Shown here piece by piece: positions 2,027 through 14,678 of a DNA stretch of 40,790 bases. The stretch spans positions 196,475 to 237,264 of the forward strand of contig DATMBG010000037.1 of assembly GCA_035559535.1 (NCBI GenBank), read 5' to 3'. The notes beneath the pieces were generated by a model. The model had not been told where the DNA came from. It did no database searches and saw only the letters and a program-made list of their open reading frames with translations. This DNA is from Candidatus Limnocylindrales bacterium (GTDB taxonomy: Bacteria > Moduliflexota > Moduliflexia > Moduliflexales > JAUQPW01). The position numbers and the translations under genes are program-made. Every line of letters starts with the position of its first letter. The stretch's first letter is position 1.

Positions 2027-2100
2027 ACCACGAAAGACACGAAATGGACGCAAGGGGCCGACCTGTCTTTCGGTTTTCGTATCTTTCGTGTATTCGTGGT
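2027..2100. repeat. Imperfect inverted repeat ahead of the kinase gene
   Basis: ACCACGAAAGACACGAAA at 2027-2044 is answered by its near reverse complement TTTCGTGTATTCGTGGT at 2084-2100. The pair lies between the kinase remnant and the intact kinase. From memory, repeats of this ACGAAAGACACGAAA type are frequent between genes in some Verrucomicrobia; I could not check this here. It could also act as a terminator for the upstream remnant. It argues against the in-frame ATG at 2044 as the kinase start, because the first 22 codons would be repeat sequence. Confidence 0.55.
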
Positions 2101-2109
2101 GAGCCTCTC

Positions 2110-5100
2110 ATGAAAGCTAGAATCCTCCTGATCGAAGCCAACGAGCAGAACCGTTACCTCGCCACGTTCCTGTTGGAGAAGCACGGCTTCACCGTGGTCC
2201 ACGCGCCCGACGGCCCGGCTGGCATCGCGCGCGCCAGGCAGGAGCGGTTCGATCTCATCCTGCTCGACATTCAATTGCCCGATATGGACGGCTATGAGGT
2301 TGCGCGCGCGTTGCGCGCCGAGCCGGCGCTGGCCGGAGTGCCGATTGTCGCCGTGACCTCCTACGCGATGGTCGGCGATCGCGAGAAGGCGTTGGACTCG
2401 GGTTGCACCGGCTACCTGGAGAAACCCATCAACCCGGACACGTTCGTCGCGGAAGTCTGCCGCCATCTGCGACCGCCCGGTGGAGAAAGCGAGGAAGCAA
2501 TCGTGCTCAAGGAATACAGCGAAACACTGGTCCGCAAACTGGAGGAGAAAGTCGCCGAACTCGAACAAGCCAACCGCGCGTTGCGCGAGAGCGAAGCGCG
2601 CTTCCGGGCGATTTTCGAGAGCGAACCGGAGTGCGTGAAGCTCCTGGCAGCCGATGGCTCGCTGCTCGCCATGAATCCCGCCGGATTGCAGATGCTCGAA
2701 GCTGATTCGTTCGAGCAGGTCGAGCGCCACTGCATGTATCCGCTTGTGGTGGAGGAACACCGCTCCGCCTTCCGTGAACTGACGGAGCGGGTGATGCGCG
2801 GGGAGTCCGATACGCTTGAATTCCAGATCGTCGGCCTCAAGGGTGGACGCCGCTGGTTGGAGACCCACGCCAGCCCGCTGACCGACGCGACCGGGAGAAT
2901 CGTGGCGGTGCTCGGCATCACACGCGATATCACCGAGCGCAAGCAGGCCGAAGCGGCGCTCCGCGAGAGTGAGGAGCGCTTTCGCCTGCTGGTGGACCAT
3001 GCGCCCGAGGCGGTGGTGCTGCTCGACGTGGAGACCGGCCGCTTCGTGCATAGCAATCCGGCTGCCGAAACGCTCTTCAAGCTGCCCGCCACCGAGCTGG
3101 CCCGGGTCGGCCCGGTCGAGCTCAGCCCGCCAGTCCAACCTGACGGCCAACCTTCTGAAACCAAAGCCCGTGCGCTCATTGCCGCCGCGCTTGCCGGCGA
3201 GAAACCCGTCTTCGAGTGGATGCACCGCGACGCCACCGGCCGCGACATCCCCTGTGAGGTACGGTTGCTGCGGATGGAACTAGGGGGGCGGACGATCGTG
3301 CGCGGCAGCGTGCTGGACATCTCGGAGCGTAAGGCTGCCGAGGCGCGCATCGGCCAGCTCAGCCGCACTTACGCGGTGCTGAGCGGTATCAACCAGGCCA
3401 TCGTCCGCGAAAAAGACCCACAGGCGTTGCTGACCAGCGCCTGCCGCATCGCCGTCGAAAAAGGCGGCTTTTGCCTGGCCTGGATCGGTTTGGCCGGGGC
3501 GGACGGGTGGTTGCGGGTCACGGCCCACGCGGGGGCAACGCCGGAGACGATCGAAGTGGTCCGTGCCTTTGTGGAAGGCCCGCAACCGGACTGCGCCTTC
3601 ACCTATCACGCGCTGCAGCAGGGCGAGCGGGCTGTGTGCCTGGACATCGCCAGGGACGAGCGGGCGCGCAACTGGCGTGACGCAGCACTGGCGCGCGGTT
3701 GCCGTGCGATGGCCTCCCTGCCGCTGCAGGTGGGGGACCGCACGGTAGGCACGTTCAACCTTTACGCGAGCGTGGCGGGCTTCTTCGACCAGGAAGAACT
3801 GCACCTGCTGGACGAGCTGGCGGCGGACATCGGGTTTGCCTTGGAGGCGCACGAGCGGGAACGCGAGCGGCAACGCGCCGAGCAGGCCTTGCGCGAACTC
3901 ATCCGTACGGTGGACGGCATCGTGTGGGAAGCCGATCCCGACACATTCCACTTCACCTTTGTCAGCTCGCACGCCGAGCGGTTGCTGGGCTACCCGGTGG
4001 AACGCTGGTTGAACGAGCCGGACTTTTGGGCTAGCCACCTGCACCCGGACGACCGTGAACGGGCCGTCAACTTCTGTGTTGCCGCCACCCGCGCCGGAAA
4101 GGACCATCAGCTCGAATACCGCATGCTGGCCGCGGATGGGCGCGTGGTGTGGCTGCGGGATCTGGTGACGGTAGTCGTCGAGGACGGCCGCCCGGTGAGG
4201 TTGCGCGGCATCATGGTGGACGTGACAGCGGCCAAGGAAACCGAGGCGGCCCTGCGCGCCAGCGAGGAACGGTTCCGCGAAATCGCCGAGACCATCGAGG
4301 AGGTTTTCTGGGTCACAAACCCGGAGAAAAACCGGATGCTTTACGTCAGCCCGGCCTACGAGCGCATCTGGGGTCGCAGCACGCAGAACCTGTATGCCTC
4401 CCCGCGCGACTGGCTGGAGGCCATCCATCCCGACGACCGCCCGCACGTGCTGGAAGCCGCCACCACCCGGCAGACCACAGGCGAGTATGACGTCGAATAC
4501 CGCATCGTCCGGCCCGACGGCCAGGTGCGCTGGATTCGGGACATGGCGTTTCCCGTGCGGGACGAGTCGGGTCGTGTGGTACGCATCGTGGGCGTGGCGC
4601 GGGACATCACCGATCGGCGGCTGGCCCAGGAGCGTTTCCGCCTCCTGATCGAGAATGCGCCGGACATGATCCACGTGATCGACAACCAGGGGTTGCTCTG
4701 TTTTCAAAGTCCTTCGGTGGAACAAATCCTCGGCTACACCGAGGAGGAACGGCTGGGCCGCAGCGTCTTTGATCTGGTGCATCCAGACGACTTGGCTGCT
4801 GTCCGGGCAGCGCTGGGGCAGGCCGTGGCTCAACCTGGCCAGTCCGTGAGGGTGGAATGCCGGTTGCGGCACAAGAACGGCCAGTGGCGGCTGCTCCAAG
4901 CGGTGGGCCGCAGCTTGCCGGAGCAGGCCGCCGAGGGGTTCATCGTGCTCAACTCGCGCGACGTGACCGACCAACGCCGGTTGGAGGAGCAGTTTCGCCA
5001 GTCGCAGAAGATGGAGGCGATCGGGCAGTTGGCCGGTGGCGTGGCGCATGATTTCAACAACGTCCTGACCACGATCATCATGCAGTCCGAGTTGCTGGAC

Positions 5101-6132
5101 ATGGACGAACAAGTGAGTCCGAAGATCAAAGACGGCCTGCGGCAGATTCGCGCCGCCGCCGGGCGGGCGGCGAATCTCACGCGGCAGTTGCTGCTGTTCA
5201 GCCGCCGCCAGGTGATGCAGCCACGCGACGTGGACCTGAATGAGGTCGTGACCAACCTGGCCAGGATGCTGCAGCGGATCATCGGCGAGGACGTGCGCTT
5301 ACAACTGCACCTGAACCCAATGCCGCTGTGGACACACGCGGACCCCGGCATGTTGGATCAGGTCTTGATGAACCTGGCCGTCAACGCCCGCGACGCCATG
5401 CCCGAGGGCGGTCAGTTGCGCATCGAGACGCTGACCAGAACCGTGGACGAAATGCTCGCCCGGCAGCACGGCGATATCTTACCCGGCGACTACGTGGGCT
5501 TGCGCGTGACCGATACCGGCTGCGGCATTGCGCCGGAACACCTGGCCCGCATTTTCGAGCCTTTCTTCACCACCAAAGAACCGGGCAAAGGCACGGGCCT
5601 GGGGCTGGCCACTGTGTTTGGAATCATAAAGCAGCACGGAGGCTGGATCGAGGTGGAAAGCCAGGTGGGACAGGGAACGACGTTTGAAGCGTATCTGCCC
5701 GCTCTGTCCAAGCCCGCCGCGGCTGCGGCGGTAGCCCGAGCGGTTGCCAGACCGCCGGGAGGCACGGAAACCATCCTGCTGGTCGAAGACGACGAGGCTG
5801 TGCGGCTGATGACGCGTGCGGTACTGGAACGGCACGGGTACCGGGTGATCGAAGCCCCGGACGGGCTGGCCGCCCTCGAACGCTGGGAACAACATCGCGC
5901 GGAGGTGGCGTTGCTGCTGACCGACATGGTGATGCCGCGCGGGATCAGTGGCCACGAGCTGGCCCGGCGGCTGCAGGCCGACCGGACCGATTTGAAGGTG
6001 CTTTATATGACAGGTTACAGCGTGGAACTCGCCGGCCGGAAATTGATACCGCAACCGGGCCAGAATTTTCTCCAAAAGCCTCTTCAAGCCGACGTGCTGC
6101 TGGCCGCCGTGCGGCGGTGCCTGGACGCGTGA
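2110..6132 (+). CDS. Giant hybrid sensor histidine kinase (REC-PASx2-GAF-PASx3-HisKA-HATPase-REC)
   Basis: This is a cytoplasmic, multi-input two-component kinase of 1340 residues. The start at 2110 gives MKARILLIEAN, the natural beginning of a receiver domain; the upstream ATG at 2044 lies in a repeat. Domains in order: DivK-like receiver (1-125; D53, T83, K105), PAS (about 160-277), PAS (278-412), GAF (413-577), PAS (595-710), PAS (716-837), PAS (840-955), HisKA with H980 in GGVAHDFNN, HATPase (NLAVNARDAMPEGG; DTGCGI; TGLGLATVFGI), and a C-terminal receiver (about 1220-1338; D1272). No transmembrane segment is seen, so it should sense soluble or redox signals. In the first receiver the second acidic-pocket residue is Ala (IEAN). 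GC content and codon use differ sharply from neighbouring genes, suggesting transfer. No partner regulator is adjacent. Confidence 0.93.
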   Translation: MKARILLIEANEQNRYLATFLLEKHGFTVVHAPDGPAGIARARQERFDLILLDIQLPDMDGYEVARALRAEPALAGVPIVAVTSYAMVGDREKALDSGCTGYLEKPINPDTFVAEVCRHLRPPGGESEEAIVLKEYSETLVRKLEEKVAELEQANRALRESEARFRAIFESEPECVKLLAADGSLLAMNPAGLQMLEADSFEQVERHCMYPLVVEEHRSAFRELTERVMRGESDTLEFQIVGLKGGRRWLETHASPLTDATGRIVAVLGITRDITERKQAEAALRESEERFRLLVDHAPEAVVLLDVETGRFVHSNPAAETLFKLPATELARVGPVELSPPVQPDGQPSETKARALIAAALAGEKPVFEWMHRDATGRDIPCEVRLLRMELGGRTIVRGSVLDISERKAAEARIGQLSRTYAVLSGINQAIVREKDPQALLTSACRIAVEKGGFCLAWIGLAGADGWLRVTAHAGATPETIEVVRAFVEGPQPDCAFTYHALQQGERAVCLDIARDERARNWRDAALARGCRAMASLPLQVGDRTVGTFNLYASVAGFFDQEELHLLDELAADIGFALEAHERERERQRAEQALRELIRTVDGIVWEADPDTFHFTFVSSHAERLLGYPVERWLNEPDFWASHLHPDDRERAVNFCVAATRAGKDHQLEYRMLAADGRVVWLRDLVTVVVEDGRPVRLRGIMVDVTAAKETEAALRASEERFREIAETIEEVFWVTNPEKNRMLYVSPAYERIWGRSTQNLYASPRDWLEAIHPDDRPHVLEAATTRQTTGEYDVEYRIVRPDGQVRWIRDMAFPVRDESGRVVRIVGVARDITDRRLAQERFRLLIENAPDMIHVIDNQGLLCFQSPSVEQILGYTEEERLGRSVFDLVHPDDLAAVRAALGQAVAQPGQSVRVECRLRHKNGQWRLLQAVGRSLPEQAAEGFIVLNSRDVTDQRRLEEQFRQSQKMEAIGQLAGGVAHDFNNVLTTIIMQSELLDMDEQVSPKIKDGLRQIRAAAGRAANLTRQLLLFSRRQVMQPRDVDLNEVVTNLARMLQRIIGEDVRLQLHLNPMPLWTHADPGMLDQVLMNLAVNARDAMPEGGQLRIETLTRTVDEMLARQHGDILPGDYVGLRVTDTGCGIAPEHLARIFEPFFTTKEPGKGTGLGLATVFGIIKQHGGWIEVESQVGQGTTFEAYLPALSKPAAAAAVARAVARPPGGTETILLVEDDEAVRLMTRAVLERHGYRVIEAPDGLAALERWEQHRAEVALLLTDMVMPRGISGHELARRLQADRTDLKVLYMTGYSVELAGRKLIPQPGQNFLQKPLQADVLLAAVRRCLDA

Positions 6133-6479: not shown

Positions 6480-6800
6480 GCAATCTTGTGAAGTGGTCTG
6501 ACAACCAGCTGAAGCTGCCGGCGCGTAGAAGGACCCAGGCGAAGGTCCCCGCGGTCCTCGTGTGCCGTAGCTTAGCCGGAGCGTTAGGCAGGTATATACC
6601 CGCAAACAAGGTGTAGAACGATGAAGATGTGGAGGGAATGGATTGTCTCGGACCCTAAAGCGTGATACAGCCCCCTCAGCATGCATAGAGCAGATGACAA
6701 TGGGTTGCAGGAAAACTGCCTGCTGGGATCTATACGGGGCGGCTGGGTAACTCGTCCTACCGCGATGGCCGAACCACGTACTTCTGAATAATATCCCTTG
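6480..6800 (+). other. Structured, non-coding stretch; possible group II intron 5' relic
   Basis: No protein can be read here. The sequence has the texture of a structured RNA: AGGACC and GGTCCT arms near 6528-6554, a GTGTGCC start-like motif near 6559, purine-rich AAGCGTGATA-type internal segments, and alternating complementary G/C tracts. This resembles my memory of domain I of bacterial group II introns. I see no domain V and no maturase, so if it is an intron it is a fragment. The call is tentative. Confidence 0.3.
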
Positions 6801-6873
6801 TTTTAACATACCTGTGAATCTTAATCTTATCTGAAAGTGAAATGGGTCGAGTATACTTTCTAGCCCTATTTGT

Positions 6874-7008
6874 ATGGAAGTACCGTCCAATGGTCGGATT
6901 CATCATTGGGCATTCATTCCAGAAGTAGGTAAGTATTTACGGGTTGTCACGAAACCAGATGGGGAACCTGTACATAAGGCATTCTTTGACCGTGGCTTTA
7001 GACCATAG
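6874..7008 (+). CDS. Small DUF4258-like protein (possible toxin, probably truncated)
   Basis: This 44-codon frame was missed by the 60-residue cut-off. It reads MEVPSNGRIHHWAFIPEVGKYL, then RVV, a short charged turn, and HKAFFDRGFRP before TAG. The pattern (GRIHxWxxIPExxxYLRVV followed by HxAFFDRxFxP) is one I recognise from short proteins annotated as DUF4258-like and often paired with a DUF2283 gene. Such pairs are thought to be toxin-antitoxin modules. Homologues are usually longer, and no clear ribosome binding site precedes the ATG, so this may be an N-terminally eroded copy. The DUF2283-like relic just downstream supports the pairing. Confidence 0.45.
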   Translation: MEVPSNGRIHHWAFIPEVGKYLRVVTKPDGEPVHKAFFDRGFRP

Positions 7009-7025
7009 CCTGAGGAGTAGACCCT

Positions 7026-7065
7026 ATGAAGTTTCGATAGGACTCAGACACCGACAGGGGCTTAG
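7026..7065 (+). pseudogene. DUF2283-like antitoxin relic
   Basis: ATG at 7026 opens MKFR, then TAG, then DSDTDRGL. DUF2283 proteins typically begin MKxxYDxxxDxLyI, so a TAT-to-TAG change would explain the stop. Only this N-terminal signature survives. The call rests on a very short match and on its position directly after the DUF4258-like gene. Confidence 0.3.
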
Positions 7066-7137
7066 AAAAGCATTTGAAAAAAGACAACTTAGTGGTACGG
7101 ACTCAACTTTTAACTACAAAAGGAAAGGAGAAAGTTT

Positions 7138-7767
7138 ATGGCCGAACCTGCAATTCTTGAAGTATTCTCAGACTATGTTTGACCCTGGTGCTATTTCAGT
7201 ACGGGACGTATTGAGGAACTACGAAAAAACTATGAGGTAGAAATTAAATGGAGGGCTTTTCCTCTTCATCCCGAAACTCCAGAAGAGGGACAGACCCTGG
7301 AAGAACTTTTTGCGGGCCGTTCTCTGGATCTCGCCATCATGATGGCTCGCCTGAAGCAAGTAGCCGCCGTTGAAGGATTACCCTTTGGGGAACGTAGAAT
7401 GACCTATAACAGTCGTTTAGCCCAGGAATTAGGTAAATGGGCAGAATCCCAGGGTAAGGGCGATGAATTTCATAGGGCGGTTTTTCGAGCTTATTTTGGA
7501 GAGGGTAAGAATATCGGAAAGATTCCAGTACTCATAGATATAGCCCGATCTGTGGGTCTTTCAGATAAAGAGGCTCAGGCTGTGCTTGAGGAAAGAACCT
7601 TTAAGGAAGCCGTTGATTCCGATTGGCACCGCTCTTATCTTATGGGAATCACAGGGGTTCCGACTTTCGTAATCAACAGGCAAGGAGTTGTGGGCGCGCA
7701 ACCCTATGAGGTGCTGGAATTACTGATGAAGGCAGCGAATGTAAAAAAGCGTCAACCCGATCAGTAA
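7138..7767 (+). CDS. FrnE/DsbA-family oxidoreductase with in-frame TGA at the catalytic cysteine (candidate selenoprotein)
   Basis: Read through one in-frame TGA (7180-7182), this is a 209-residue thioredoxin-fold protein of the FrnE / 2-hydroxychromene-2-carboxylate isomerase group. ATG at 7138 has an excellent ribosome binding site (AAAGGAG). The N-terminus is MAEPAILEVFSDYV-(TGA)-PWCYFS. Relatives have DYVCPWC here, so the TGA replaces exactly the first Cys of CxxC, giving U15-P-W-C18. Everything downstream is intact: KWRAFPLHPETPEEG, a helical insert, the cis-proline loop GITGVPTFV and the normal TAA. There is no signal peptide, so it should be cytoplasmic. Conventional calling would start at the internal ATG 7339 and lose the active site. 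TGA is used as a normal stop elsewhere in the window (2110-6132, larB, metG), so the code is not altered. The alternative is a nonsense mutation in a Cys codon. Confidence 0.8.
7183..7223 (+). promoter_or_regulatory. Candidate bacterial SECIS hairpins downstream of the TGA
   Basis: Two alternative stems lie inside the coding sequence. CCC (7183-7185) plus GTGCT (7188-7192) pairs with AGTAC plus GGG (7198-7205), with a TG bulge and an ATTTC loop. Further on, CGTA (7207-7210) pairs with TACG (7220-7223), extendable with TT/AA around a GAGG loop whose first G lies 31 nt after the TGA. That distance and an apical G fit the loose bacterial SECIS rules, but neither hairpin closely copies the E. coli fdhF element. 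Confidence 0.45.
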
Positions 7768-8074
7768 AACCTCCCATTTTCCTCTACAGGTTGAGAAAGC
7801 CAGTCTCAAATCCAGGAAACCTTCTGTTCCCTTACCGTTGGTTTTCATAAAGTAGAGTTTTCCATTAAATTTTTATTGACAAACCTTCCTCGGATAAATG
7901 ATATAATTAAACATAATAAGCCTTTATAAGGTACTCTCCCTTCAATTAGAAATGATCCAAAGGGATACCCCTCGAGTTTACAAGCGATCTTAAAAGCGTT
8001 TTAACCCGTTTGATCTTTGAACAGTAGGAGGAAATATTTACGTGAGTTAACTAACCTTAGGAGGTGGATGTGTT
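7768..8074 (+). promoter_or_regulatory. Intergenic region with promoter for the cytochrome cluster
   Basis: A perfect -35 box TTGACA (7876-7881) and a perfect -10 box TATAAT (7902-7907) face the cytochrome genes. The spacer is 20 nt, longer than the usual 17, which could mean weak basal use or help from an activator. About 160 nt of leader follows, ending in a strong AGGAGGTGG ribosome binding site (8059-8067) for the gene at 8075. No gene is visible in this stretch. Confidence 0.5.
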
Positions 8075-9097
8075 ATGAGAGTAAGGATTTTCGCCGGGGT
8101 TCTTGGGACTACTATAGGTATAACGCTATTACCAACCAATCTTTTTGTTTTAGCCCAACAGGCTCCTATTCCCGTTGAATCTATCAAAGTGGATATGGCT
8201 CCGAAGGTAGATGGGGATGGGAGTGATGAGGTCTGGCAAAAAGCTAAAGAGGTTAAAATTCAAACAAAAGATGGTCCGGAGGCGAAGCTTAAATCGGTCT
8301 ATACAGACAAGGAAATATTTTTCTTGATTACCTGGCCAGACCAGACAGAATCCATTAATATGGATATGTGGGTTTTCAAAGATGGGGCCTGGTCCATTAA
8401 GCAGGAGCCTCGATATGGAGGAAGTCAATCCTGGGATGCGGATCAAGATCGTTTGGCCTTTCAATGGAATATTAAGGACTCTGTTACTGGATTTAATGAA
8501 AAAGGTTGCGTGGCTCTCTGCCATGTTGAAGAGAGGGAAGATCGCATGCACACTAACGGTCCCGGGCAATATACGGATATCTGGCAATGGAAGGCAGCTC
8601 ACTCCAATCCGTTGGGAAAGATCGACAATGGTCACCTGGACAATACGGTGGTCAGTAAAAAAGATCAGCCGGACGAGGAAAAACGTCTCTATGCCGCTCA
8701 TAAATGGGATGGGACCGGGGATGAGCCCTTTGTAAGAAATATCGAAAATAACGCCCCTAAATGGATGCCCAAAGGGGGGCCCAATAAGGAGCCTTTCTTG
8801 ATGAAAGGTAACGAAGTTCCCCTGGATCCCAGCGTTGTAAAGTCAGGGGATACTGTTCCGGGTTGGGTGATAGGACCCCTTCCCAAAGGCCGGGATGTCA
8901 TCAATGCTAAGGGGGTTTATAAAGAGGGTACCTGGACTTTAGAAATCGGTCGGGCCCTGGTGACCGAGAACAAAGATTTTGATATTCAGTTTGAAGATCT
9001 CAAAAAACCTTATTATTTTGGGATGGGTATTTGGGAGAATGACCGCTTGTTTGCTCATATGCGTGCAGATGGGCCGTATATGTTGACCTTTAAATAA
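8075..9097 (+). CDS. Exported ethylbenzene-dehydrogenase-like haem protein (EB_dh domain)
   Basis: This 340-residue protein has a signal peptide (about 1-28, ending VLAQQA). A single domain follows of the kind found in ethylbenzene dehydrogenase gamma subunits and related haem-binding proteins: a VDGxxDEVWQKA opening, YTDKEIFFLITWPDQT, the central DRLAFQWNI, and a GKGVYKxGTWTLEIGRAL-type segment near the C-terminus. Such domains bind haem in periplasmic electron carriers. It also contains C145-x3-C149-H150, a spaced variant of the c-type haem motif, in GCVALCHVEERE. Start choice is clear: AGGAGG lies about 8 nt upstream. It heads the respiratory cluster and is followed after 83 nt by the CydA-like oxidase gene, so it probably feeds or receives electrons from that complex. 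A related domain recurs in the last gene of the cluster. Confidence 0.8.
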   Translation: MRVRIFAGVLGTTIGITLLPTNLFVLAQQAPIPVESIKVDMAPKVDGDGSDEVWQKAKEVKIQTKDGPEAKLKSVYTDKEIFFLITWPDQTESINMDMWVFKDGAWSIKQEPRYGGSQSWDADQDRLAFQWNIKDSVTGFNEKGCVALCHVEEREDRMHTNGPGQYTDIWQWKAAHSNPLGKIDNGHLDNTVVSKKDQPDEEKRLYAAHKWDGTGDEPFVRNIENNAPKWMPKGGPNKEPFLMKGNEVPLDPSVVKSGDTVPGWVIGPLPKGRDVINAKGVYKEGTWTLEIGRALVTENKDFDIQFEDLKKPYYFGMGIWENDRLFAHMRADGPYMLTFK

Positions 9098-9180
9098 GGG
9101 TCCTGGAGGGAATTTGAGTGAAAAAATTTACAATAGAGAGTCTCGTTTTCTGCTGGAAAGCGTGAGTCTCCAATTGCTTT

Positions 9181-10977
9181 ATGAGGAAAATAAATCGTAA
9201 AGTTTTTTTCATCTTTTCTCTGCTTTTCTTTGTGATCCTGATAGGTTCGGCGTTTGCCCAACAACCTGCCGGTGATCAACCTGTGGAGTATCGGGCATTT
9301 CCGTATATAGGAAGCCGACAAATCATGTGGATTGCAGCACAATTACACCTGATGTTTGCAGCCTTTATTTTAGGTGTTCCTATTTTTGCAGTGATTGTGG
9401 AGTTTATCGGATTCTATGCCCGAGACCCCTTGCAAAAACTACGTTACGACAGACTGGCCAAAGAGTTTACCAAGCTTCTATTAATCGCGTTTTCTGCAAC
9501 GGCTATCTGGGGAGCCATCCTTACCTTCTTATTTATCACCCTTTATCCCAAGTTTTTTAATTACTTATCGAACATCTTCTCTCCCACCTTATGGATTTAT
9601 CCTTTTCTCTTTTTTGGAGAAACTTTCACCCTTTATCTTTATTGGTACGGCTGGGAGTGGTTACAGGGGGAGAAGAAAAAATTCCATTTGGCCTTAGGGG
9701 TACTTCTAAATCTCTTTGGGATTGCCGTCCTTTTTATTACCGATGCCTGGACGACCTTTATGATGAGTCCCAGTGGAGTGGATGAAAAAGGTAATCTGGT
9801 TAGCCTCTGGAAGGCGATTAACAATCCGTTGTGGATGCCTTTAAATATTCATCGGCTGATCGCCAATATCGTTTTTGGAGGTTCCATTGCGGCGGCCTAC
9901 GCGGCTTTTCGATTTTTATCTTCTAAAACCGAGGAAGAAAGAGCCCATTACGATTGGATGGGATATATTGGGAATTTTATAGCCATTCAAGCCTTTATTG
10001 TTCTTCCCTTTGCCGGGTATTGGTTTGGTCGAGAAATTTATGCCTTTGATCAACAACTGGGAATCACCATGATGGGGGGTTTTCTGTCCTGGCTCTGGAT
10101 TATTCAGGCGATCCTTATCGGAATTATTTTCCTGGCAAGTAATTACTATTTGTGGATCGGTATGGAGCGGATCCCAGGGGCCGAAAGATATCGACTGTAT
10201 ACCCGGCTTATTTTGTTGGTTTTAGTTGTTGGTACACTGGTTTGGGCAACTCCCCATAGCCTGGTGGCCAGTCTGGAAGAAGCGAGAAAAATGGGTGGCG
10301 CTCACCATCCTCTTTTGGGAGTTCTGGGGGTTATGTCCGCTAAAAATACCGCGGTCAATATCATGATTCTGAGTACTTTTCTTAGTTTTTTGTTCTATCG
10401 GCGGGGCAATAAAATCTCCAGGGTTTCCTGGGCTAAGACCGGTGTGGTTCTTCAAGGGCTTATTCTCTTCCTGGCGGCTTTTATTGTAGTCTTTTACGGA
10501 GTTCGTGGTTACTTTGTAGAAGCCATCGTGCGAATTGGATATTCGGTTTATCAGGTTTTAGCCGTATTGAGCGCTATTATCCTGACCATGATCCTGGATA
10601 TCTTTATGCTCCGTAATGCAGAAGAGATCGGACCCATTCGGTGGGGAAAAATGCCACCCCGTTCTCAATACGCGCTTTTCCTCGTTGCCATTACATTTAC
10701 CTGGCTTATGGGACTCATGGGATATGCCCGGTCGGCCATTCGACAACACTGGCACGTTTATGGAGTTATGCGTGATACTTCCCCCGAAGCTTTCTCCCCG
10801 ACATTGGGCTTTGCAGCCGATATGGTTTCCATTTGTGTTCTTCTGTTTTTTGCCCTCGTCTTCTTTATCTTCTGGATTGGTCATCTTGGAGAAAAAACAA
10901 AGATCCTTGAGGAACAGGTTGAGGAGGAAGTAGAAGGAATAACCACTGCCAAGCTGAAAGGGGGTTATACAACATGA
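9181..10977 (+). CDS. CydA-like (bd-type-like) terminal oxidase subunit I
   Basis: This 598-residue polytopic membrane protein belongs to the cytochrome bd oxidase subunit I superfamily. Family signs are RQIMWIAAQLHLMFAAFIL with H56 (equivalent of the CydA haem ligand H19), LFFGETFTLYLYWYGWEW with the conserved Glu, LFITDAWTTFMMSPSG, NIHRLIANIVFGG with H224 (equivalent of H186), and a region near 515-530 reading YARSAIRQHWHVYGVMRD where canonical CydA has ExGRQPW. The first 26 residues look like a cleavable signal or an extra membrane helix. It is longer than CydA and has no long quinol-binding Q-loop. No cydB is present; instead the next genes encode c-type cytochromes, the first overlapping by ATGA. 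This arrangement recalls the bd-like oxidases of Nitrospira. I infer a cytochrome-c-linked oxidase rather than a quinol oxidase. The ribosome binding site is weak, so the exact start is uncertain. Confidence 0.85.
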   Translation: MRKINRKVFFIFSLLFFVILIGSAFAQQPAGDQPVEYRAFPYIGSRQIMWIAAQLHLMFAAFILGVPIFAVIVEFIGFYARDPLQKLRYDRLAKEFTKLLLIAFSATAIWGAILTFLFITLYPKFFNYLSNIFSPTLWIYPFLFFGETFTLYLYWYGWEWLQGEKKKFHLALGVLLNLFGIAVLFITDAWTTFMMSPSGVDEKGNLVSLWKAINNPLWMPLNIHRLIANIVFGGSIAAAYAAFRFLSSKTEEERAHYDWMGYIGNFIAIQAFIVLPFAGYWFGREIYAFDQQLGITMMGGFLSWLWIIQAILIGIIFLASNYYLWIGMERIPGAERYRLYTRLILLVLVVGTLVWATPHSLVASLEEARKMGGAHHPLLGVLGVMSAKNTAVNIMILSTFLSFLFYRRGNKISRVSWAKTGVVLQGLILFLAAFIVVFYGVRGYFVEAIVRIGYSVYQVLAVLSAIILTMILDIFMLRNAEEIGPIRWGKMPPRSQYALFLVAITFTWLMGLMGYARSAIRQHWHVYGVMRDTSPEAFSPTLGFAADMVSICVLLFFALVFFIFWIGHLGEKTKILEEQVEEEVEGITTAKLKGGYTT

Positions 10978-11981
10978 ATGGATCCAATCAATTTATCGGG
11001 CTTAAAGTTGTTTTGTTTACGCTGATTGTTATAGGTATTTTTACCTATTATGCCAATAGTATTCCGCAACTGGAGTCAAGACCTCCCAAGGAGCTTTCTC
11101 TAAGTAAAGAGAACCTCACTCCAGAAGCTCTGGTTCAGGCTGGTAAAGATATTTTTTATGGAAAAGGAACATGCGCACTTTGCCATGCCATCGGCGAAAA
11201 AGGACCCCGAGCTCCTGATTTAGCAGGAGTAGGAGCCAGAGCCGCCACACGTGAGCCGGGAAAATCCGCTAAGGAATACTTGATAGAATCTCTTATTAAT
11301 CCCACCGCCTATGTGGTGGAAGGGTATCCTCCCATTATGCCTGCGGTTAATAAACCTCCCATTTCTTTAAATCCAACGGAGATTTTAGCCGTTGTAGCAT
11401 TCCTCGAAAGTCTGGGGGGGACGGTCGATGTTAAACCCTCGGATATCCCTTCTGAAGCCTCTGCTACCGCCGCTTCTGCGACTCCTGCAGCACCTGCTCC
11501 CTTGAAACTCCCAGGAAATCCTGAAGCCGGAAAGGCCGTAGCAGAAGTGTGTGTTCAGTGCCATATTATCCCAGGTGTCGGTAAACCCAGAAGACCCAGG
11601 GCTCCAGATCTTTCAGCCATTGGAGCTATTGCTACACCCGATTATATTATGGAATCCATTCTGGATCCCGATGCAAAGGTAGTAGCCGGATATCCTGCCG
11701 GATTAATGCCTAAAGATTTTGGGGAGAAACTGAAAGCCCAAGAATTTATGGATCTGGTGGCTTTTCTTATGACCTTAAAAGGAGGATCGCCGGAGAGTGG
11801 TGAACCGGGTAAAGGAGCTCAACCTGCTGAAGGTCAAAAGAAGGAAGGGGTCCAGGAGACAAAGGCTTCTTCCGTACCGGTCCCCGAAGCTAAACCGGCA
11901 GAAACCGAGAAGAAGGAAGGAACCGAATCCCAGGGTAGCAAAAGCCCAACCGCAGGTTCTGAACAGAATAAATCTCAGTAG
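10974..11981 (+). CDS. Membrane-anchored dihaem cytochrome c
   Basis: The start overlaps the stop of the oxidase gene (ATGA), indicating translational coupling. The 335-residue product has an N-terminal membrane anchor (about 10-27) and two c-type cytochrome domains. Haem motif C67ALCH71 is followed by GPRAPDLAGVG and an axial-ligand candidate in PPIMPA. Haem motif C193VQCH197 is followed by RAPDLSAIG and a candidate in AGLMPKDF. The two domains look like duplicates joined by an Ala/Pro linker (about 158-178). The last 60 residues form a charged Glu/Lys/Pro/Ser tail without obvious structure. It probably serves as the electron-donating subunit of the bd-like oxidase. Confidence 0.85.
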   Translation: MNGSNQFIGLKVVLFTLIVIGIFTYYANSIPQLESRPPKELSLSKENLTPEALVQAGKDIFYGKGTCALCHAIGEKGPRAPDLAGVGARAATREPGKSAKEYLIESLINPTAYVVEGYPPIMPAVNKPPISLNPTEILAVVAFLESLGGTVDVKPSDIPSEASATAASATPAAPAPLKLPGNPEAGKAVAEVCVQCHIIPGVGKPRRPRAPDLSAIGAIATPDYIMESILDPDAKVVAGYPAGLMPKDFGEKLKAQEFMDLVAFLMTLKGGSPESGEPGKGAQPAEGQKKEGVQETKASSVPVPEAKPAETEKKEGTESQGSKSPTAGSEQNKSQ

Positions 11982-12013
11982 GGTCATACCTATTTGTAAT
12001 TAAACGAGTAGCA

Positions 12014-12137
12014 TGTCATTGCGAGCCCTTCGATACCTGCAGGTAAATTCCGCGAAGCCATCCCTTGACTTCAAGGGATGGCTTTGTCCCCTTTGCTTTA
12101 CCCTGAGCTTCGGCTCATATCGCCCCTTGCAATGACA
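12014..12137. repeat. TGTCATTGC...GCAATGACA interspersed repeat with internal hairpin
   Basis: Nine-base terminal inverted repeats, TGTCATTGC (12014-12022) and GCAATGACA (12129-12137), enclose a perfect 13-bp hairpin with a 2-nt loop (12056-12083). From memory, this resembles a class of extragenic repeats seen in many environmental genomes with TGTCATTGCGAG ends. It separates two cytochrome genes and may act as a partial terminator. Confidence 0.65.
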
Positions 12138-12182
12138 AACTCTTACTCCATTTGAAAGAGCCTTAACGATGAGTTATCAGGA

Positions 12183-12247
12183 TAAAACGTAAAACATAAG
12201 ACCTGAAGGCCTCCAGAGGCGCTTTGTGTTTTATGTCTTCCGTTTTA
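12183..12247. repeat. Imperfect inverted repeat with TAAAACG ends
   Basis: A TAAAACGTAAAACATAAGAC arm faces a GTGTTTTATGTCTTCCGTTTTA arm. It lies just before the cytochrome start at 12252, leaving no room for a normal ribosome binding site upstream of that gene. Confidence 0.5.
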
Positions 12248-12251
12248 ATAT

Positions 12252-12995
12252 ATGTCTATTCTGAAAAGCTCTTTTATACATGCCATTCTACTCCTTGTTA
12301 TCGCTATTCTTATTTTTAAATACGGGATTCACCCTCCCATTCCCCAAAGCTTATTTTTGCTTTACCTGGTTATTACCCTTTTCGGAATTTTCCTCTTTGT
12401 TTCTTCCAGTGAGGAGACCTGGAAAAGCTTCCTGAGTCCCATCCATGCAACGCTTTATGATCCCAGGTTTAGGGGAATTCGAGCGATTATCTTTATCATC
12501 CTTCCCATACTGGCAACTTACCTGGTTTACCTGAGAGTTCAACCAAAAATAGAACCTCCGGCAGAACTACGAACCATTCACCCGGCCCCTCCGGATACCA
12601 TTAGTTTTCGTAATGGAACCATTAAGCTTCAAGGGTTAGGAAATCCCTTGAGGGGCGATAAAGAGCATTTCCAGGAGCACGTAAATAGAGGCAAGGCCAT
12701 TTATTTTAAAAATTGTTTCTACTGCCATGGAGATGGGTTAAACGGAGAAGGCCATTTTGCCGAGGGACTTAATCCGAAGCCTGCAAATTTTACCGATGTG
12801 GGGACCATTGCACAGCTTCAAGAATCTTATCTTTTTTGGAGAATCGCCAAGGGTGGACCCAATCTTCCAACAGAAGCAACTCCCTGGAATTCTGCGATGC
12901 CAGCCTGGGAAAACTATCTCACAGCGGACGACATCTGGTCCGTTATTCTTTATTTATATGAAGCCACCGGTTATCAGCCCAGGAAGTGGGAGTAA
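12252..12995 (+). CDS. Membrane monohaem cytochrome c with three N-terminal helices
   Basis: This 247-residue protein has three predicted membrane helices (about 10-26, 33-50 and 77-96). A periplasmic cytochrome c domain follows, with motif C155FYCH159 in NCFYCHGDGLNGEGHFA, and a likely axial methionine in SAMPAWENYL. The pattern resembles small membrane cytochromes that act as redox subunits of oxidase or dehydrogenase complexes. It belongs to the same cluster as the bd-like oxidase and the two other cytochromes, but is separated from the upstream gene by repeats. No good ribosome binding site is visible before the ATG. Confidence 0.8.
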   Translation: MSILKSSFIHAILLLVIAILIFKYGIHPPIPQSLFLLYLVITLFGIFLFVSSSEETWKSFLSPIHATLYDPRFRGIRAIIFIILPILATYLVYLRVQPKIEPPAELRTIHPAPPDTISFRNGTIKLQGLGNPLRGDKEHFQEHVNRGKAIYFKNCFYCHGDGLNGEGHFAEGLNPKPANFTDVGTIAQLQESYLFWRIAKGGPNLPTEATPWNSAMPAWENYLTADDIWSVILYLYEATGYQPRKWE

Positions 12996-13007
12996 GGCCA
13001 ATAACAT

Positions 13008-13098
13008 AACCCAGGAGTCAGAAGTCAGGAGTCAGAAGTCAGAAGCAGTTTTAGTTTTTGACCTCTGGCTCCTGGCTTCTGTTACGTTTTACGGGACT
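13008..13098. repeat. CAGGAGTCAGAAGTC-type foldback repeat
   Basis: Direct AGGAGTCAGAAGTC units are followed by their approximate complement (CTCTGGCTCCTGGCTTCTG) across a T-rich loop. It fills the spacer between two cytochrome genes and has no coding sense. Confidence 0.55.
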
Positions 13099-13100
13099 AA

Positions 13101-14678
13101 ATGAAAAAGACACTTAACTTCTACGGTTGGATTTCTGTGGTACTCCTGATTTTTTTTCTCAATCTAAACTTTGTTCATGCCGGAGAAGCGCAACCTCCCG
13201 AAAAAAACCTCGAAGTAGGTAAAGCCCTCTATCAAAAAAATTGTGCCCAATGTCACGGGGATAATGGAGAGGGAAAGGGAGTATCAGAACCCTTCGTATT
13301 TCCAAAACCTCGAGATTTTACAGCAGGTCTTTACAAGATCCGAACCACCCCCGGTGGGCAACTTCCTTTAGATTCAGATCTGTTCCGAACCATCAGCTTC
13401 GGGATGCCGGGATCTTCCATGCCGGCCTGGCAACAACTGAGCGAAGCGGACCGCTGGCAATTGGTTCACTATATTAAAACTTTTTCTCCTAAATTTGCTT
13501 CGGAAACCGCAGAGAAAGTGGCCACAACGCCGAAACCTGCCAAACCTGATCTCGAGAAAGGACGGCAGCTCTTTCAGGATATAGAATGCTGGAAATGCCA
13601 TGGACAGGAAGGGCGAGGTGATGGTCCTTCGGCCCCGGAACTTAAGGATAACTGGGGATTCCCTATAAAACCTGCCGATCTGACAAAAAACTGGACTTTC
13701 CGAGGGGGTGGTTCGGTGGAAGATATCTATATGCGAATCATAACAGGGATCAATGGAACTCCCATGCCTTCCTTTTTGGATTCCTTTGAAAAACCAGAAG
13801 ATGCCTGGGATCTGGCCTATTATGTAAGATCTTTATCCCCTGAAAATAAACCCGAAGTTACTGTGCTCAGGGCAAAGCTTATCCCGGGTGAACTACCCAC
13901 AGAACCTGAAGACCCACGATGGAATGAGCTACCTGCTTACTACTTTCCACTTTCCGGCCAGATTACTATAGAACCCCGATTATTCACGCCTTCCCTTGAT
14001 TCTATCTTCGTAAAGGCTGTACATAATACTAAGGAAATTGCTTTCCTGGTTATGTGGAATGATAGAACCCAAGATCCTTCCCCTCCGGGTGCTATCCCAC
14101 AAACTGCATCGGCAGAAGGTCAACAAAGTCAATCTGCTTCTCAACAAGGTAACCCTTCAGCCCCTCAACCAGGAAGTCCCCAAAAATTCAGCGATGCCAT
14201 TGCTATCCAATTCCCTGTCAAGCCAGATCCCGGCGGTTTCATAAAGCCATACTTTATTATGGGCGATTCAGAAAGACCGGTCTATTTATGGACATGGAAA
14301 GCCGAATGGCAGGGTGTTAAGGAATCCAATGCCAGTGGCCCATTCAAAGAAACCCTACAAAGTCAGGAAAGCCAGACCCTTCAAGGTAAAGGTATCTATA
14401 AAAACGGTCAATGGAAGGTCCTTTTTAAGCGAGCTTTAACCACCCAGGATAAAGACCATGACTACCAATTTGAAATTGGAAAGTTTATCCCCATCGCTTT
14501 TTCTGCCTGGGACGGCTCCAATGGAGAAACCGAACTGAAAAGATCCCTCTCAACCTGGTATTATCTGTTCCTGGAAACACCCCGGCCCATTAGCCAGTAC
14601 CTTTATCCCATCACAGCCTTTCTACTTATAGCCGGAGCGGAAGTCTGGTTCTTGAAACGAAACAGCCGAAGGCAGTAA
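13101..14678 (+). CDS. Dihaem cytochrome c fused to an ethylbenzene-dehydrogenase-like haem domain, membrane anchored
   Basis: This 525-residue exported protein joins three redox modules. After a signal peptide (about 1-27) come two cytochrome c domains: C48AQCH52 with SSMPAWQQL supplying a likely axial Met, and C163WKCH167 with GTPMPSFLD supplying a second. Residues about 255-490 form an EB_dh domain (FVKAVHNTKEIAFLVMWND, DAIAIQFPVK, VYLWTWKAEW, GKGIYKNGQWKVLFKRAL), interrupted by a Gln/Ser/Pro-rich insert near 325-350. A C-terminal helix (about 497-517) followed by KRNSRRQ anchors it. The fusion resembles an electron conduit between a b-type and several c-type haems. It closes the cluster that starts at 8075, whose first gene carries the same EB_dh domain alone. 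Confidence 0.82.
   Translation: MKKTLNFYGWISVVLLIFFLNLNFVHAGEAQPPEKNLEVGKALYQKNCAQCHGDNGEGKGVSEPFVFPKPRDFTAGLYKIRTTPGGQLPLDSDLFRTISFGMPGSSMPAWQQLSEADRWQLVHYIKTFSPKFASETAEKVATTPKPAKPDLEKGRQLFQDIECWKCHGQEGRGDGPSAPELKDNWGFPIKPADLTKNWTFRGGGSVEDIYMRIITGINGTPMPSFLDSFEKPEDAWDLAYYVRSLSPENKPEVTVLRAKLIPGELPTEPEDPRWNELPAYYFPLSGQITIEPRLFTPSLDSIFVKAVHNTKEIAFLVMWNDRTQDPSPPGAIPQTASAEGQQSQSASQQGNPSAPQPGSPQKFSDAIAIQFPVKPDPGGFIKPYFIMGDSERPVYLWTWKAEWQGVKESNASGPFKETLQSQESQTLQGKGIYKNGQWKVLFKRALTTQDKDHDYQFEIGKFIPIAFSAWDGSNGETELKRSLSTWYYLFLETPRPISQYLYPITAFLLIAGAEVWFLKRNSRRQ

Follow-up and report, generated by a model that had tools for sequence, protein, structure and literature searches.

The Gene and Its In-frame TGA

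The DNA analyzed here (hereafter designated the window; G000:C37:196475-237264) is a stretch of 40,790 nucleotides. It carries a reading frame that runs from ATG 7138 to TAA 7765-7767 and is interrupted only once, by a TGA at codon 15 (Table 1). The 209-residue protein obtained by reading through this codon matches PF01323 (DSBA) over residues 7-195 with E=1e-39 and a score of 136.7 bits against a gathering score of 25.6, so that homology extends on both sides of the TGA, while no NCBIfam model scored above its cut-off for this protein. The TGA is aligned with the first Cys of the CPWC or CPFC motif of Cys-containing homologues, and the putative selenocysteine (Sec15) and Cys18 are the only redox residues of the protein. 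The GVPTF cis-Pro loop is present, its Pro175 being invariant in 31 homologues. No signal peptide was seen by inspection, Sec being residue 15. Among the other TGA-interrupted frames of the window, inspection by eye gave no convincing candidate and no redox motif, and the remaining TGA contexts resembled, again by eye, ordinary gene ends or non-coding frames.

A standard gene caller would return only the 142-aa ORF that starts at ATG 7339. Being the longest uninterrupted ORF of this frame, it might be taken for the real gene, that is, one lacking the active site. Such a reading is very improbable, since the ribosome binding site precedes ATG 7138 instead and conservation extends over residues 1-67, where D12, P16, W17, C18, and Y19 do not vary among 31 homologues. 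Standard annotation would thus hide a predicted selenium-dependent redox enzyme behind a protein without its active site. An earlier note on this DNA had described the frame with its single TGA at codon 15, a ribosome binding site before the ATG, the coincidence of the TGA with the first Cys of the motif, conserved sequence on both sides including GVPTF, and the truncated 142-aa annotation product; coordinates and description alike proved correct.

Table 1 Features of the gene and its surroundings in the window
Feature	Positions	Strand	Basis
Ribosome binding site AAAGGAG before ATG 7138	7124-7130	+	Sequence read; AAAGGAA at the same place in the closest relative (L024)
FrnE/DsbA-type selenoprotein gene (predicted), 209 aa with Sec15	7138-7767	+	Frame, domain, homologues, predicted structure
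In-frame TGA, putative Sec15, first catalytic residue of UPWC	7180-7182	+	Sequence and homologue alignment
TGC, Cys18, resolving residue of UPWC and sole Cys in the protein	7189-7191	+	
Candidate bacterial SECIS: 10-bp stem 7194-7203/7207-7216, apical loop GGA 7204-7206, 21 nt after the UGA	7194-7216	+	
142-aa ORF from ATG 7339, standard-caller product without the active site	7339-7767	+	
GVPTF codons (residues 173-177), cis-Pro loop, expected opposite the active site	7654-7668	+	P175 invariant

The gene lies between a 1362-aa hybrid sensor with response-regulator, PAS, GAF, and histidine kinase domains (2044-6132) and a cluster at 8075-14678 encoding ethylbenzene-dehydrogenase-like proteins (8075-9097 and the C-terminal half of 13101-14678), several c-type cytochromes, and a 598-aa protein weakly matching cytochrome bd subunit I, next to which no subunit II was seen. 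This downstream cluster looks like an unusual electron-transfer module.

Selenocysteine Machinery in the Host Genome

The same genome encodes a tRNA-Sec (74.5 bits) with the anticodon UCA (TCA in DNA), together with SelA (540 bits), SelB (409 bits, the full model being covered), and SelD (389 bits). Weak tRNA-Sec-like, SelB-like, and SelD-like matches occurred everywhere in the control genomes; the best matches for these three families in the present genome each lie above the curated cut-off of the family. Moreover, SelD (L020:1477-2430; G000:C29:76668-77594) has an in-frame TGA of its own, in the context MSKKDRWELTKTVECGG-U-AAKLSP (CGG-U-AAK), and, as judged from this sequence, is the Sec form and itself a predicted selenoprotein, which a standard caller would therefore truncate as well.

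The presence of the full Sec system bears on the question of whether UGA is read in this organism as another amino acid, Trp or Cys, under a reassigned code. UGA reassignment does occur in some bacteria, and the codon stands here at a Cys position. Nevertheless, besides the Sec machinery, the SECIS-type constraint found after the UGA (see below) speaks for Sec; several ORFs of the window terminate at TGA, as the earlier note had remarked of other genes here; and in the sequence read, SelD and the present gene were the only conserved frames seen to be interrupted by a TGA. We consider a reassigned code highly improbable.

Codon 15 in Relatives of the Gene

A search of 84,980 species genomes supplied the best 80 relatives. 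At codon 15, 79 of them have TGA and the remaining one has TGC, and the codon for Cys18 is TGC or TGT throughout. These relatives span several phyla and belong to Desulfobacterales, Syntrophaceae, Nitrospirota, Rhodospirillales, Betaproteobacteria, SAR324, and other groups. Sec is thus apparently the rule among the closest relatives, and the recurrence of TGA at the same codon is not due to chance. The closest of them (L024), whose protein is 95% identical, retains the TGA, and comparison of codons 16-209 with the window gene gave dN 0.021 and dS 0.278 (dN/dS about 0.08), indicating selection at the protein level after the TGA. More distant Cys homologues (37% identity) have CPFC at the same place.

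These results leave little room for a pseudogene or a sequencing error, in which TGC or TGT would have been mutated to, or misread as, TGA. It accords with such an explanation that the single stop is the sole defect of the frame. However, the identical TGA in 79 of 80 relatives across phyla already refutes it, and both the low dN/dS past the TGA and the covariation of the hairpin described below run counter to it, making its probability negligible.

The single TGC relative, L067 (3001-3603), comes from a betaproteobacterial MAG. Its protein is the sister of a Sec protein (L068) and is nested in the Sec clade (support 100/87). SelA was not found in the L067 genome, which may be incomplete, and the SECIS codons that are conserved in the Sec forms are absent from this gene. 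L067 thus resembles a case of Sec-to-Cys replacement accompanied by loss of the pathway.

Candidate SECIS Hairpin Downstream of the UGA

Bacterial SECIS elements have been described by a loop of 3-9 nt, a stem of 4-16 bp, a distance of 16-37 nt from the UGA, a G among the first two positions of the loop, and an MFE <= -7.5 kcal/mol (PMC13188914). The hairpin after the present UGA conforms to all the published values, with loop GGA, 10 bp, G first, and 21 nt. The 35-45 nt downstream of the UGA fold with an energy of -8.1 to -9.8 kcal/mol, and a 67-nt fold is no more stable than its shuffles (z 0.02). As an Rfam scan of positions 6800-8000 gave no match, the putative SECIS was tested by covariation instead.

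Synonymous identity among the homologues was in excess by a mean of 0.32 over codons 16-27, compared with 0.04 downstream (sd 0.07 per column), and codons 20-25 each showed an excess of 0.41-0.77, the mean past codon 30 being 0.04. Arg24 is encoded by CGT in 69 of the 70 sequences bearing Arg at this position, whereas in the remainder of these genes CGT makes up a minor share, 128 of 981, of the Arg codons. In each of the 80 Sec sequences (the window plus 79 relatives), a standard pair joins the third base of codon 21 to the first base of codon 25, namely T-A in 64, C-G in 14, and A-T and T-G in one each. Thus, the change of the third base of Ser/Ile 21 from T to C goes together with the change of residue 25 from Ile to Val (7198-7200 and 7210-7212 in the window). 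The choice between Ile and Val at residue 25 follows the opposite base, a clear coupling between RNA structure and amino acid.

The same picture was obtained for the helix as a whole. In an alignment of 32 sequences, an 8-bp helix was 89.8% paired, with four pairs changed on both sides, and RNAalifold recovered six of the eight pairs unaided. The covariation score of this helix was 0.216, as compared with 0.127 +/- 0.013 in shuffles, which do not correct for relatedness, and with at most 0.179 in versions of the helix slid along the alignment, in which relatedness is retained. The hairpin as a SECIS element therefore has strong comparative support, in which conservation and covariation, not free energy alone, are the basis. 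Moreover, the Sec homologues may provide bacterial SECIS models with a test set that is well replicated.

The earlier note had proposed looking for selA, selB, selC, and selD, for alternation of TGA with Cys codons, and for a SECIS past 7182. All four genes were found, TGA and TGC both occur at codon 15 among the best 80 relatives, and the hairpin fits the published description. The Sec machinery, the exchange of TGA with a Cys codon, the SECIS, and the purifying selection after the TGA all support its proposal of a Sec-containing FrnE/DsbA oxidoreductase with a U-P-W-C site.

Predicted Structure and Likely Function

An AlphaFold model built from 31 sequences of the window and related loci had a mean pLDDT of 93.7. 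Its best PDB matches in Foldseek were the structures of Deinococcus radiodurans FrnE (TM 0.85-0.88 by query length), followed by SCO1869. The sequence search agreed with this result, D. radiodurans FrnE being the best PDB match (3e-26). FrnE is therefore the closest solved relative by both sequence and fold.

Foldseek also retrieved kappa GST, HCCA isomerase, and YjbH, which share the fold. A true selenoprotein might hence have a main role other than that of a disulfide reductase or isomerase, for example, as a glutathione-dependent transferase, an HCCA-isomerase-like enzyme, or a YjbH-type adaptor. We regard this as unlikely, because the UPWC motif and the cis-Pro loop match those of the redox-active FrnE, the top match by sequence and fold. 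Most likely, by analogy with FrnE, the window protein is a cytoplasmic disulfide reductase/isomerase that uses a Sec15-Cys18 couple.

A mechanism may be proposed on this basis. As suggested by the sequence and comparative evidence, SelB and Sec-tRNA-Sec, together with the hairpin, would decode the UGA, placing Sec15 where CPWC has its nucleophilic first Cys. By analogy with Deinococcus FrnE, Sec15 would attack a substrate disulfide, and Cys18 would resolve the mixed intermediate with formation of a selenenylsulfide. Thioredoxin, glutathione, or another cytoplasmic reductant could then regenerate the enzyme, partner and substrate being likewise extrapolated from the Deinococcus protein. Collectively, the gene almost certainly encodes, to judge from its sequence, a cytoplasmic FrnE-type Sec15 oxidoreductase that is decoded through SECIS and SelB and adds a member to the DsbA-like (COG2761/PF01323, UxxC) family already known.

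Comparison with Known Systems

The DsbG-like selenoproteins (NF041057, the Rcas_1661 family) likewise have a thioredoxin fold with UxxC. The match of NF041057 to the window protein is weak (33 bits, the cut-off being 190), and the members of that family are lipoproteins, unlike the window protein.

D. radiodurans FrnE (DR_0659; PDB 5cnw, 5co3, 5cp1) is also predicted to be cytoplasmic and superimposes with a TM of 0.86, its CPWC lying in the same place, but it has Cys where the window protein would have Sec. It isomerizes disulfides and reduces insulin, and cells that lose it become more sensitive to cadmium and diamide (PMC8945050). In addition, it contains a C-terminal CX4C motif (residues 239-244), which has been proposed to regenerate the enzyme (PMC8945050) and which the window protein lacks. 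The Streptomyces proteins, SCO1869 (PDB 3gl5; 29% identity to the window protein in structural alignment) and S. roseofulvus FrnE, belong to the DsbA-like FrnE subfamily in the Cys form; the latter, like the window protein, is without the C-terminal CX4C (PMC8945050).

The CX4C motif was found in none of the 79 Sec homologues and in all three sampled Cys homologues. It occurs in many FrnE proteins but is not obligatory, some of them being without it (PMC8945050). Since both the Cys-replaced L067 and S. roseofulvus FrnE lack the motif, its link to Sec is unproven, and its absence is a lead, not a finding. We therefore hold it only tentatively, and as somewhat doubtful, that the Sec forms of FrnE constitute a functionally distinct branch doing without this regeneration motif. 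If so, thioredoxin or glutathione would recycle the Sec15 site directly, and shuttle cysteines of the type proposed for the Deinococcus protein would not be needed.

The closest known system is the family of DsbA-like selenoproteins, which shares with the window gene PF01323, UxxC with Sec first, COG2761, and a SECIS just after the UGA. We take COG2761 to be the FrnE group, following the COG names. Searching the literature for FrnE in connection with selenoproteins or selenocysteine yielded no relevant paper, the family being filed under 'DsbA-like'. Under this name, nine sequences (COG2761, UXXC) were presented as a new selenoprotein family, for which a SECIS was shown (Zhang et al. 2005, PMC1088965). 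Four members were counted in 2006 (PMC1794560), 63 in ocean samples in 2008 (as 'DsbA 1, pfam01323, UxxC'; PMC2398784), and 45 proteins from 41 organisms in 2016 (PMC5029168), and 'DsbA-like protein form 1', with PF01323 and UxxC, is listed in a review of 2026 (PMC13188914). Family identity being judged here by the tabulated COG, Pfam, and motif, that is, by descriptions (published members are, e.g., AACY01178397 and NIP15863.1), the tabulated features show no difference from the window gene. The family was first reported in groups other than the host of the window, whose nearest relatives among the genomes compared are one congener and two members of the same order. The 'new selenoprotein' of the earlier note thus stands for the gene and not for the family: what is added here is one further member, easy to mis-annotate, of a selenoprotein family that has itself been known since 2005.
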